Source of the DNA: Aurantimonadaceae bacterium
GTDB lineage: Bacteria > Pseudomonadota > Alphaproteobacteria > Rhizobiales > Rhizobiaceae
Length of the DNA: 64,000 bases
Reading direction: 5' to 3'
Assembly (NCBI GenBank): GCA_947474855.1
Contig: CANJKV010000007.1
Coordinates: forward strand, 1 to 64,000
Shown here in pieces: positions 14,286-20,011 of the stretch. The notes below the pieces were generated by a model. It was given only the letters and a program-made list of their open reading frames with translations, made no database searches and was not told the origin of the DNA. Position 1 is the stretch's first letter, and every line of letters begins with the position of its first letter. The position numbers and the translations under genes are program-made.

Positions 14286-14370
14286 GCCCAGGTGGCGGAA
14301 TTGGTAGACGCGCACGGTTCAGGTCCGTGTGCCGCGAGGCGTGAAGGTTCGAGTCCTTTCCTGGGCACCA
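14286..14370 (+). tRNA. tRNA-Leu (anticodon CAG), CCA encoded
   Basis: gcccagg...cctgggc acceptor stem, ggttcgagtcc T-arm, anticodon stem-loop cacgg-ttCAGgt-ccgtg, long variable arm, terminal acca. Confidence 0.95.
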
Positions 14371-14457
14371 ATCCTCTCCCAAGCTGTTGAGCTGGTGAGG
14401 TTTTCCGCAAAAACAGAGACTTAGTGCTGCCCGAGTGATACACACGGGTGATACACA

Positions 14458-15993
14458 ATGGTCCTCTGCATGGCGCGTCCCTTCAAGCATCCGAAAACCG
14501 GCATGTACTGGCTGCGGCGCCGGGTGCCGGCCGATCTCATCGCGCTCGTCGGCAAGCGAGAAGAGCTGCTGAGCCTTAAGACCAAGGACGCTAGCGAGGC
14601 GAAACGCCTGCACGCGGCAGCGCTTGCCGAGCTCGAGGCACGCTGGGACCAGCTGCGCGCGGGCACCGTCAAGCTGAGCGAACGCGAAGCGCTGGAGATC
14701 GCGCGCGACCTCTTCGACCGCTGGATCGAGCTCCATCGGGACGAGCCGAGCCAACAGACCCGTTGGCGAACGAACCTGTTCGGGATGCTCTGGCGTTCGC
14801 CGACCGCCGAAGAGCTCAGCTTACCCCTGAGCGCGGTCGACATGGATGGCGTCAAGCGAAGGCAGATGGAAGCGCTCGCCTTCGAGGGCGCCGACGCGCT
14901 GCTGCAGCGGCGCGGGCTCGTCACCGATGGCGAGAGCCGATCCAAACTGGCGCGGGCGGTGGCTGCCATCCTTCAACGGGCAAGCCTCGCCCTCGAGGCG
15001 CAGGCGCGAGGCGACCTGGGCGTGACGTTCGCCTCGGACGAAGGTTCGCTTCCGACCGCGGCCCCTGCACCAAGCGAGCGCAGAAAGGCGTTGACGTTCG
15101 ACGACGCTTTGAAGCTCTGGACGCTGGAGCGCCGGCCCCGCGATAAGACGCAATACGAGTGGCGGCGCGTCATGAACGAGTTTGCCGCCTTTGTCGGCCA
15201 TCGCCAGGCCGACCGCCTGACGCCAGACGATTTCATCCGCTGGAAGCAGGCCCTTCTTGAGGCTGGCCGCTCGACGAAGACGATTCGCGATGCCAAGCTC
15301 GCTCCGATGCGGGCGATCCTACAGGTCGCGGTTGAGAACCGCCGGCTGAGCGACAATCCGGCCGAGAAGGTGACGGTCACGGTGAAGAAGGTGGCGGCCG
15401 AGGCGCGGCGCGACTTCACCGAGGAGGAAGCCGTGACCGTGCTGAAGGCTGCGGCTTTGGAGAAGAAGCCGGTGCTGCGTTGGGTGCCCTGGCTCTGCGC
15501 CTATTCCGGTGCCCGCGTTTCTGAGGTGTGCCAGCTGCGTCGCGAGGACGTGTACCAGCAGGAAGGCATCTGGGTGATGCGGTTCTCGGCTGAAGCCGGA
15601 GACCTCAAGACCGCCAACTCGGAGCGCATAGTTCCCCTGCACGCCGCCCTGATCGCCTCCGGCTTCCTGACCTTCGCGGACAAAACGAAGACGGGACCGC
15701 TGTTTGCCGACGTAAAGCCTGACGTTTTCGGCCGCCGGGGCGGCAACGGCTTGAAGGTCATCGGACGCTGGGTCCGTGACTTGGGATTGACCGATCCTCG
15801 CTTGGCACCGAACCACTCCTGGCGCCACCGCTTCAAGACCATGGGCCGTCGTTACGATCTGCGCCTAGACATCGTGGACGCGATGGTCGGGCACGCGCCG
15901 AACAAGGTGGGCGACCGCTACGGGGCCCATCCGGTCACCGCCATGCTGCGCGAGATGGAAAAGATACCCAGCCTCGTCCTCGAACCGAGCTGA
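14458..15993 (+). CDS. tyrosine recombinase/site-specific integrase (DUF6538-type N-terminus)
   Basis: MARPFKHPKTGMYWLRRRVPADLIALVGKREELLSLKTKDASEAKRLH...; catalytic region YSGARVSEVCQLRREDV...HSWRHRFKTMGR...MVGHAPNKVGDRYG. Start may be 14470. Lies about 100 bp from the tRNA-Leu 3' end. Confidence 0.92.
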   Translation: MVLCMARPFKHPKTGMYWLRRRVPADLIALVGKREELLSLKTKDASEAKRLHAAALAELEARWDQLRAGTVKLSEREALEIARDLFDRWIELHRDEPSQQTRWRTNLFGMLWRSPTAEELSLPLSAVDMDGVKRRQMEALAFEGADALLQRRGLVTDGESRSKLARAVAAILQRASLALEAQARGDLGVTFASDEGSLPTAAPAPSERRKALTFDDALKLWTLERRPRDKTQYEWRRVMNEFAAFVGHRQADRLTPDDFIRWKQALLEAGRSTKTIRDAKLAPMRAILQVAVENRRLSDNPAEKVTVTVKKVAAEARRDFTEEEAVTVLKAAALEKKPVLRWVPWLCAYSGARVSEVCQLRREDVYQQEGIWVMRFSAEAGDLKTANSERIVPLHAALIASGFLTFADKTKTGPLFADVKPDVFGRRGGNGLKVIGRWVRDLGLTDPRLAPNHSWRHRFKTMGRRYDLRLDIVDAMVGHAPNKVGDRYGAHPVTAMLREMEKIPSLVLEPS

Positions 15994-16041
15994 GGCCCTT
16001 CGACGCTGGCGGGAGCAGCGCAGCGGCAGCCATTGCCCCTG

Positions 16042-16463
16042 CTACACCTCTCGGGGATCGAGCAAGGCGTCGGCAGCGGCCTCGATCTCGTCACGCCATG
16101 CGAGGAGGTGAAGCCAGCGCTCCGGGATGGCGGAGGCGCCGTACATCGCACCGGCGATCTGTCCGGTTACGGCGCCGACCGTGTCGGCGTCCTCGCCGAG
16201 GTTGACGGCAAGGATCACCGCCTCCTCGAAGCTCGCTGTGCGGGCCGTCGCCCAAAGCGCGGCTTCCAGCGTGTGGACAACGTAGCCCGAGGAGCCGATG
16301 GCGTCCCGCTGCTTGGCTCGCCAGCGGCCGGCCGCGATGGCGGCGATCCGGGGATCGCCTGTCCAGGGCCGAGCGCCAAGCGGATCGCCCTCGCCGAGGA
16401 TCGATCCGCGCAGGATCCTGGCGAAGAGCATGCAGGCCTCGACCGCCTGGGGCGCGCCGTGCG
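16042..16463 (-). pseudogene. C-terminal fragment of an ADP-ribosylglycohydrolase (DraG-like) family protein
   Basis: Reverse-strand THGAPQAVEACMLFARILRGS...PRIAAIAAGRWRAKQRDAIGSSGYVVHTLEAALWATARTASFEEAVILAVNLGEDADTVGAVTGQIAGAMYGASAIPERWL. The part of the ORF upstream of ~16463 is only antisense of the next feature. Confidence 0.7.
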
Positions 16464-16870
16464 TCGTGCGGCTCGGCGTCGACGTGGCCAGCGTCGAGGC
16501 AGGTATCGTGGGCGCCGACGCCGCGCGAGAGATCGCAGCGCGCCATCCCAGCATCGATCCCGCCTCGATCAAGGGCAAAGCGTTCGACATGCTGTTCCGT
16601 GAACTATGCGCCACGCAGGCCCTCGCGACGAGCGAGGGTCGCCAAGTGCTGACGCCGTTCGCGTTCGTGTCTGCCCTCGCCGGAGCCCTGCTGGCGGTGG
16701 AGCTCGTCAGGAAGGATTCGAACCTGCCCGACACGGGCGGCTGGCATGTCGATCCGTGGCGTGGCCCGGTCGGCCGCCTCAGGCGCCCGATGCCGCGAAA
16801 CCCCGACTGCGAGTTCTGCTCCAAGCCGCACTTCCGTGCCGTCATCGACGAGTACTGGCCAAGGAGCTGA
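16464..16870 (+). pseudogene. C-terminal fragment of a ThiF/E1-like adenylyltransferase family protein
   Basis: Translation in ORF 16298..16870: LTPFAFVSALAGALLAVELVR ... HVDPWRGPVGRLRRPMPRNPDCEFCSKPHFRAVIDEYWPRS; the SALAGALLAVELVR helix and a terminal CxxC resemble C-termini of E1-like proteins. N-terminal adenylation domain absent. Confidence 0.5.
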
Positions 16871-17313
16871 GTTCCGCACATACTGTGCATCAGACCCCAT
16901 TATCGGGAAGCGCGGATCGTTCGCGACGCCGCTCTCCTGGGCACCCCGCTCAATACATGTAGCCTGCGAGTGTACCCGTCCTTCGCCCTACGCCGCGGTA
17001 GCTATCGCATTCTCGGCGCAGCAGCCGCGCGCCGCTCATCTGCGCTCGAAAGCATGGCCTGACCGCGCCGCAAGGGAGCGCAAAGGGCCGATAGCGGAAC
17101 GTCGGCTTTTGAGCACTGTGGGCCGAGAACCAGCCGATCGGCAGCCAGGTGCGACGTGGCGTACATAGCTTGAGTGACTGAGTACGGGGAGAGGTGAGGC
17201 CGAACGCGCATATTGGAGAAACGGGCAAGAGACGGCGACAAACCGGCAACTCGCCGTAGCGCGACGCTTCCATAAACGGGTCATCGCAACAAGCGATCTG
17301 AAGGAGATCGACG

Positions 17314-18069
17314 ATGACCACCCTTTCCCTCGTGACCGGCGGCAGCCGCGGCCTCGGCCGCAACACCGCGCTCAGCATCGCGCGCCATGGTGGCGACGTG
17401 ATCCTCACCTTTCGCAACGGCGCGGAACAGGCCCGATCCGTCGTCAGCGAGATCGAGGCGCTCGGCCGCAAGGCCGTCGCCCTGCAGCTCGACGTCAGCG
17501 ACGTGTCCTCGTTCGGCAGCTTCGCGGATGCCGTCCGCGCAGCCCTGTCCTCCACTTGGGGGCGCAACCGGATCGATCACCTCGTCAACAACGCCGGCCA
17601 CGGCGAGATGGCGAGCTTCGCCGAGACGACCGAGGCGCAGTTCGACGCCCTCTTCGACACGCACGTGAAGGGCGTGTTCTTTCTTACCCAGGCGCTGCTG
17701 CCGCTCCTCGCCGACGGTGGGCGGATCGTGAACTTCTCGAGCGGCCTCACTCGCGTGTCCGTGCCCGGCTTCTCAGCCTATTCGGCCGCCAAGGGCGCGG
17801 TGGAGGTTCTGACGCTCTACATGGCCAGGGAGCTCGGCAGCCGCGGCATCACCGTCAACACCGTGGCGCCGGGCGCGATCGAGACCGACTTCCTGGGTGG
17901 TGCGGTGCGCGACATGCCCGACCTCAACCGGCAGTTCGCCGGCATGACCGTGCTCGGCCGCGTCGGGGTGCCCGACGATATCGGGCCGATGGTGGCGAGC
18001 CTTCTCGGCCCCGACAACCGCTGGATCACCGCCCAGCGCATCGAGGTCTCGGGCGGTCAGACGATTTAG
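17314..18069 (+). CDS. SDR family NAD(P)-dependent oxidoreductase
   Basis: LVTGGSRGLGRNTAL, NNAGHGEM, YSAAKGAVE; aaggag RBS upstream. Confidence 0.92.
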   Translation: MTTLSLVTGGSRGLGRNTALSIARHGGDVILTFRNGAEQARSVVSEIEALGRKAVALQLDVSDVSSFGSFADAVRAALSSTWGRNRIDHLVNNAGHGEMASFAETTEAQFDALFDTHVKGVFFLTQALLPLLADGGRIVNFSSGLTRVSVPGFSAYSAAKGAVEVLTLYMARELGSRGITVNTVAPGAIETDFLGGAVRDMPDLNRQFAGMTVLGRVGVPDDIGPMVASLLGPDNRWITAQRIEVSGGQTI

Positions 18070-18165
18070 GCCGCCGGGCGGCTCCGATGCACGGTTCGAG
18101 GCGTCGCCGTACTCCGGCGGCGCCTTTGCGTGTTCATGCATGACCAAGACCACACAGGATGTCCC

Positions 18166-18606
18166 ATGCCCAAGATCTTCATCCACGCGCCGCAGGGCAC
18201 GTTTGATCCTGCCGCTCGTCAGGCCGTCGCTTCTGCGCTGACAAACCTTGCGCTCGAATGCGAGCGCCTCCCCAAGTCACCACTCGTGACGAGTTCGGTC
18301 TGGACCTACTTCGATGACTATCCTGCCGAGGCGGTCTTCATGGGCAATGCGCCCGCTTCGCTCAAGCCGGTCTCGGTTCAGGTCTATGCCCTGGAAGGTG
18401 GTCTGGAGGCCGCCGACAGGCGACGGCTCATCGAAGATGCAACGACGATCCTCGCCCCTCACTGCCAAGTGGAAGGCAGCCCGGTGCCAGTCTTTATCGT
18501 CATCCACGAGGTGCGGGAAAGCCATTGGGGGTTCTGCGGGCGGAACGGCGACCTCGCCGCGATGCGGGCCTCGCCGCTCGATGCTCCCGCCCTGTGGGAT
18601 GCCTGA
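18166..18606 (+). CDS. tautomerase family (4-oxalocrotonate tautomerase-like) protein
   Basis: MPKIFIHAPQGTFDPAARQAVASALTNLALECE...; 146 aa, start at 18166 within ORF 18130..18606. Confidence 0.6.
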   Translation: MPKIFIHAPQGTFDPAARQAVASALTNLALECERLPKSPLVTSSVWTYFDDYPAEAVFMGNAPASLKPVSVQVYALEGGLEAADRRRLIEDATTILAPHCQVEGSPVPVFIVIHEVRESHWGFCGRNGDLAAMRASPLDAPALWDA

Positions 18607-18873
18607 GGCCCCCTCTGTACCCTATTGGCCGACCCGCTCGACGAATGAGAAGGCTCCCGGCCGCGGCCATGGCAGGAAGCCTTTTGCAATCCGGCGCGCG
18701 GGAAGCGAGATGACCATCAGGACAAGACCGTCGACCGGGCCTGGGCGGCTAGGGCTGGGCAGTGGAGGACGTAGCGCCCAGCCTGAGACGACCGCGTTGC
18801 TGGAAGCTGCGGCGTTCTTGCCCGTTTCTCCGAACCGGCTTGCGAGGCTTCAGGCCGGACGTAAGATGGCGGG

Positions 18874-19767
18874 ATGACCCAGACTCTGCTCGCCGCCGTC
18901 CGCCGCTACGCCGACGCCCATGCCGATCCCGCCGGCATCGCCAGGACGCCGGTGCCCGGGCTCTGCATGATCCGCGCGACCCGTCCCAGCGAGCTGCAAT
19001 ACGCGATCAACCGGCCGCTCGTGGCGCTCGTGGTGCAGGGCAGCAAGCGGGTGACGATGGGCAGCCAGACCTTCGACTTCGGCGCGGGCGAGTCGCTCTT
19101 GATCGCTGCCGACGTTCCGACCGTCAGCCAGATCACGCGCGCCGATGTGGGCCTGCCCTACTACTCGGTGGTGCTCGAGCTCGACCCCGCCGTGATCGAG
19201 CCACTCGCGATGGAGATGCGGGAGGTGCAGGCTTCTATGGGTGGGCCGATCCGGGTCGACCCGACGGAAGACGAGGTCGCCGACGCCGCGTTGCGGCTCC
19301 TGCGGGTGCTTGATCGTCCGGCTGCCCTGCCCGTCTTACAGGAGCAGCTCGTGCGCGAACTGCACTTCTGGCTGCTGGCTGGGCGGCACGGCCCGGCGAT
19401 CCGAAACCTCGGCGTCGCCGACAGCCACGCGCAGCGGATCGGCCGGGCCGTCGCCCTGATCCGCGAGGCTTACGCGCAACCGCTCGGCGTCGAGCGCCTC
19501 GCTGAAGCTGCGGGAATGAGCCTGTCCTCCTTCCACCAGCACTTCCGAGCCATCACGTCGCTGTCGCCGCTCCAGTTCCAGAAGCAGCTTCGCCTGATCG
19601 AGGCGCGGCGCCTGATGCTGTCGGAAAGGCAGACGGTCAGCAACGCCGCCTATGCCGTCGGCTACGAGAGCGTGCCCCAGTTCACGCGCGACTACGGGCG
19701 GCTGTTCGGCGCGCCGCCAGTGCGCGACGTCAAGCAAGCAAAGGAGCGCATGCTACAGGCGGCTTGA
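18874..19767 (+). CDS. AraC family transcriptional regulator (AraC_N type)
   Basis: N-terminal cupin-like region (ALVVQGSKRVTMGSQTFDFGAGESLLIAADVPTVSQI) plus C-terminal HTH (LAEAAGMSLSSFHQHFRAITSLSPLQFQKQLRLIEARRLM). Confidence 0.92.
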   Translation: MTQTLLAAVRRYADAHADPAGIARTPVPGLCMIRATRPSELQYAINRPLVALVVQGSKRVTMGSQTFDFGAGESLLIAADVPTVSQITRADVGLPYYSVVLELDPAVIEPLAMEMREVQASMGGPIRVDPTEDEVADAALRLLRVLDRPAALPVLQEQLVRELHFWLLAGRHGPAIRNLGVADSHAQRIGRAVALIREAYAQPLGVERLAEAAGMSLSSFHQHFRAITSLSPLQFQKQLRLIEARRLMLSERQTVSNAAYAVGYESVPQFTRDYGRLFGAPPVRDVKQAKERMLQAA

Positions 19768-20011
19768 TCGCCACCCTCATCCCCTCACGCCTGATTGGCA
19801 CTCGGGGGCCGAAAGCTGTCGGTCCGCTTTCAGGGTATCGAGCGGAAAAGCTGCCCATCTGCTATAAAGCATTCAGAACGGAACCTCTTCCGATCCGCAA
19901 TGGCCCATTCTTACAAGTGTCGTTGTGCGCTCGTACGTCCGTCTGGCCAAAACAGATCACCCGCCCATGCTCCATGTAACGGTCCCCGCTTCGACCGCTC
20001 ACGCCGTTGGT

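Follow-up and report, generated by a model that had tools for sequence, protein, structure and literature searches.

What does the short interval from 16042 to 16870 encode, and how did it come to hold the ends of two genes? It lies in a draft contig (CANJKV010000007.1) of an Aurantimonadaceae bacterium, of which the first 64,000 nucleotides (the window) were analysed. Two long overlapping ORFs are listed on opposite strands (16042-16890, minus, 282 aa; 16298-16870, plus, 190 aa), each made of the genuine tail of one gene that continues as antisense of the other. A sequence-only reading had proposed that a deletion brought together here two divergent genes deprived of their N-termini, an ADP-ribosylglycohydrolase and a ThiF/E1-like gene, and that the ORF track hides the event. 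Both family assignments, both truncations and the masking by antisense extension are upheld below. The interval is most probably a deletion scar inside an integrase island inserted at a tRNA-Leu gene; that the E1 operon resided in this same island and was removed by a single deletion are the two steps of this explanation that we infer.

The minus strand remnant (16042-16473, 143 aa) was delimited by the Pfam profile PF03747 (ADP_ribosyl_GH) and by alignment with full-length relatives. It matches profile positions 152-287 of 287 (E=1e-28), so that the complete domain of ~287 positions is not present, and the alignment shows that the N-terminal ~155-200 aa are gone. The C-terminal DADT metal-site motif is kept (NLGEDADTVGAVTGQIAGA) while the N-terminal GDALG and TDDTAM motifs, found beyond the junction in relatives, are absent. 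Relatives from the family and the order, aligned over 273-348 aa, are all full-length (301 aa in G102, a genome of the same genus; 348 aa in G088). A search of the bacterium's own genome gave one PF03747-type match only (profile positions 150-287). The closest sequence is the chromosomal copy of G102 (86% amino acid identity, tree support 0.94), which has no integrase adjoining. Among the 24 substitutions specific to the window relative to G102 and G088, 16 are at third codon positions, small numbers from which it follows that most of the divergence preceded truncation, when the gene was under selection; the same small numbers suggest that the truncation is comparatively recent.

The plus strand remnant (16472-16870, 132 aa followed by a stop codon) is the C-terminal end of a ThiF/E1 protein of the type found in multiubiquitin operons. 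By tblastn, 16472-16867 matches ThiF-family adenylyltransferases of rhizobial plasmids, and the remnant corresponds to positions 325-458 of a 461-position profile built from intact relatives (E=2e-47), which has no second match in the genome. The relatives found are all ~450 aa long, and the N-terminal ~317 aa are missing here. A full-length relative carries an E1-N domain (PF14463) and a ThiF nucleotide-binding core (PF00899); the remnant has neither, and the GxGAxGNG nucleotide-binding motif and the first CxxC pair are lost as well. The C-terminal block FKxLCSxxxLxTxEGRQVLAPFAFVSxLAG ... PxCEFC is kept as FRELCATQALATSEGRQVLTPFAFVSALAG ... NPDCEFC. Related E1 genes are rare, being present in 3 of the 299 family genomes sampled, the window's own included. 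No match came from plasmids for the DNA of the E1 fragment, from viral contigs for the E1 profile, from PADLOC for the two fragments or from NCBIfam for the E1 proteins, and a search of genome contigs with the fragment recovered a single distant relative and nothing else.

The two remnants meet head to head, as had been claimed, though not at 16463/16464: that boundary was ~8-10 bp off. DNA similarity to the full-length glycohydrolases of G102 (85%) and G088 (72%) ends at 16474-16477, and E1 protein similarity begins at the leucine codon 16472-16474. The ~3 bp shared by the remnants at 16472-16474, CTC, are compatible with both parents, so the join requires only a few bases of microhomology. 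A false join of two unrelated reads might be suspected in a draft assembly of 415 contigs with an estimated contamination of 4.4%; it is nevertheless extremely improbable, given that the junction is internal to a 66-kb contig, that 3 bp of overlap are not enough to mislead an assembler and that the left side agrees with the order of integrase and glycohydrolase in relatives (see below).

The missing halves of the glycohydrolase and of the E1 were not found anywhere in the 5.48-Mb assembly. Both reading frames are open, with no frameshift, as would be expected if the short proteins were functional stand-alone genes. We give this possibility almost no weight, since none of the relatives found has either gene in the same short form, a conserved short length being the observation that would have spoken for it, since the ORFs start within the antisense of their neighbour, and since the glycohydrolase has lost GDALG and TDDTAM and the E1 its nucleotide-binding core and first CxxC pair. 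By what is established for the two families, the missing parts of both proteins are required for activity. Judging from its sequence, each of the two remnants is without indispensable parts of its active site and is probably non-functional, and the site is therefore an ordinary island scar, with no evidence for a new system. Long antisense ORFs in GC-rich DNA can conceal such scars from ORF-based annotation.

The island is anchored at a tRNA-Leu (CAG) gene predicted by ARAGORN (14286-14370, plus strand). A left attachment-like core, CCTGGGCACCAATCCTCTC (14360-14378, plus), is composed of the tRNA end and the first bases of the element, and the identical string precedes related integrases in G088, where it is the end of a tRNA-Phe gene, and in G281. 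An apparently intact tyrosine integrase follows (14458-15993, plus; PF20172, E=1e-17; PF00589, E=2e-5, just under its curated cut-off), sharing 67% of amino acids with the G088 and G281 integrases. The glycohydrolase remnant lies 48 bases past the integrase stop codon, on the opposite strand. To the right, the stretch 16871-17213 separates the E1 remnant from a module whose database similarity begins at 17214; this accessory module (17314-19767, plus), coding for an SDR oxidoreductase, a tautomerase-like protein and an AraC-type regulator, belongs to the same variable segment and has no equivalent in the matching flanks of G102. The left flank is syntenic with contig C1 of G102 up to 14407 (92.5%) and synteny resumes from 19987 onward with contig C34 (96.8%); 14408-19986 has no counterpart there except for a weak 80% match over 16902-16989 (~89 bp).

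No convincing right attachment site was identified, and there is no attachment repeat at 19987, where synteny with G102 resumes. Eleven bases at 16935-16945, TCCTGGGCACC, ~65 bp past the E1 stop codon, are identical to the tRNA-Leu 3′ end; this likeness is at chance level and possibly represents an eroded right attachment site. In G102 the flanks of 14371-19986 fall on two different contigs with facing ends, at distances of 32 kb and 17 kb from those ends, so that the two species differ at tRNA-Leu by at least ~49 kb or by a rearrangement. The ~7 kb tested of the C34 side of G102 were not found as such in the window's genome.

The identification of the glycohydrolase as cargo of this island draws on related genomes. 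The integrase is present in 3 of the 299 family genomes (E<=1e-100; the window's genome included), each time with a glycohydrolase downstream on the opposite strand. Only 6 of these 299 genomes give a strong glycohydrolase match (E<1e-20); with such rarity, presence in three out of three integrase genomes is unlikely to be a chance pairing. G088 has the order and orientation seen in the window, a tRNA-Phe gene, the integrase and an adjoining intact glycohydrolase (minus strand, 348 aa), and in G281 the integrase faces a full-length glycohydrolase 10.8 kb away. This pairing and the common core support, at the level of sequence comparison, both the island and its glycohydrolase cargo. A small module recurs in G088 and G281 (L034:9110-12942 and L033:5602-9244), formed by the glycohydrolase, a gene of ~240-265 aa and a ~365-aa protein whose N-terminal domain is that of a resolvase.

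The glycohydrolase piece could instead be a native chromosomal gene moved from its own locus, because the closest homologue is the G102 chromosomal copy and the window's genome has lost the corresponding locus by deletion (contig C216). This origin is quite improbable. The homology with G102 is restricted to the coding part and ends near the stop codon, with no flanking DNA; its nucleotide identity (85%) is below that of the neighbouring orthologous DNA (88-97%); and the order of integrase and glycohydrolase is that of G088. Note that the event in C216 (L115:7315-8270) is a separate deletion relative to G102 that removes the native glycohydrolase locus and truncates both neighbours: a lipoprotein-like gene retains its 5′ part, to which the 3′ part of another gene is now joined.

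The organization of intact E1 loci gives an estimate of what was lost on the other side. E1 is the last gene, following first a CEHH/E2-like gene and then a JAB gene, in 8 of 8 loci with a closely related E1 (Rhizobium leguminosarum pRLN3 and pRL10, two Bradyrhizobium plasmids, G032, G074, G395 and a Limisphaerales MAG). A UBL or multiubiquitin gene is found ahead of these three, with the exception of L007, whose first gene is annotated as hypothetical and gave no tblastn match. In L006 the Pfam domains are, in order, Multi_ubiq, Metal_CEHH, Prok-JAB and E1-N plus ThiF. The window has no UBL, CEHH/E2-like or JAB gene: tblastn with all four operon proteins matches the E1 tail only. As E1 normally closes a multiubiquitin, CEHH/E2-like, JAB, E1 operon, a whole conjugation operon was probably lost rather than only half a gene. 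If the operon lay here, the loss amounts to at least ~3 kb (~0.5 kb from the glycohydrolase, 1.6 kb for the UBL, E2-like and JAB genes together, 0.95 kb from E1).

The intact operons have recurrent neighbours. A divergent pair of RES-domain toxin and Xre antitoxin genes lies beside four of the eight (L006:8244-9333, L030:12756-13848, L031:11755-12847, L113:6734-7880), a position occupied elsewhere by WYL (CapW-like, L008) or HTH and ImmA/IrrE (CapH/CapP-like, L007 and L038) regulators; the RES-Xre pair may have a similar regulatory role in these operons, or guard them. A PD-(D/E)XK nuclease and UvrD-helicase pair adjoins the RES-Xre and multiubiquitin genes in three loci (L006:1894-7850, L030:14127-19003, L031:13248-19003), a similarly annotated pair is found near the operon in L007, and PADLOC identified the Gabija pair GajA and GajB after the operon of G395 (L113:12729-16537).

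The proposed island thus stands on the tRNA-Leu gene, the integrase and its recurrence with the glycohydrolase. The other part of the earlier claim, a divergent pair within one island, did not find a counterpart: a search for a related island carrying a full-length glycohydrolase together with the ThiF homologue and its multiubiquitin operon gave none in ~700 family and order genomes or in the plasmid loci inspected, and the two were not together in any of 11 further order-level glycohydrolase loci, one E1 locus and nine ubiquitin-like loci. It is for this reason that former co-residence and a single deletion are inferred. An integrase and glycohydrolase element might alternatively have been joined by illegitimate recombination to a separate defence island, the two genes never having formed one divergent pair. 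Besides the lack of a locus with both, the different company kept by each would agree with such a history: the glycohydrolase accompanies the window's integrase, and the multiubiquitin-type operons accompany UvrD/PD-DExK, RES-Xre, CapW-like or CapH/CapP-like genes or Gabija. We regard it as unlikely, as it needs an extra event, and islands routinely gather unrelated cargo, which makes co-residence before the deletion equally natural.

In the favoured explanation, a single deletion in one island, the ancestral order would have been the integrase, the glycohydrolase on the opposite strand, cargo of unknown nature and a multiubiquitin-type operon ending in E1. A deletion with ~3 bp of microhomology at its junction would then have taken the 5′ half of the glycohydrolase and everything between, together with the genes for UBL, E2-like protein and JAB, and also ~317 codons from the start of E1. 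A stronger version, in which the glycohydrolase and the operon once formed a working divergent pair in a mobile island, this scar being its only trace seen so far, would link ADP-ribose removal to ubiquitin-like conjugation in a bacterial conflict system. It is highly improbable, and a functional link between glycohydrolase and E1 is not supported. Decay of islands through internal deletion is common, and the scar itself therefore teaches little; its value is as a record of a conjugation operon of multiubiquitin type, a kind rarely met in this family, that probably passed through the lineage and was then lost.

Compared with known systems, the window shares with the tRNA-anchored islands of G088 and G281 the integrase family, the att-like core and the relative orientation, but differs in that their glycohydrolase is full-length and has an unknown gene and then a resolvase-like one after it, with no E1 remnant. 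Within the ADP-ribosylglycohydrolase (DraG/ARH/Tri1) family, PF03747, it retains the C-terminal half with the GEDADTVGAVTGQIAGA metal-site motif and lacks the N-terminal half that carries the other metal-site motifs. Class 6c of Iyer et al. 2006 (PMC1779556) groups a predicted metal-binding protein, a JAB protein and an E1, and the Multiubiquitin/Metal_CEHH/Prok-JAB/E1-N+ThiF operons, many of them alphaproteobacterial, are class 6c-like. With the C-terminal parts of E1s from such operons (R. leguminosarum and Bradyrhizobium plasmids, G032, G074, Limisphaerales MAG) the E1 remnant shares 37-56% identity; in the window just the last 132 residues of the final gene survive, UBL, E2-like and JAB being gone. 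The type II Bil system (BilABCD) is also related: among solved structures in the PDB, its E1, BilD (8tyz), gives the intact E1 family its best match (profile search, E=4e-36), and the JAB protein of L006 matches BilC. Relative to type II Bil, the multiubiquitin-type operons, of which the window holds a remnant only, are a distinct branch in which a multiubiquitin UBL and a CEHH protein replace the Bil UBL and E2.
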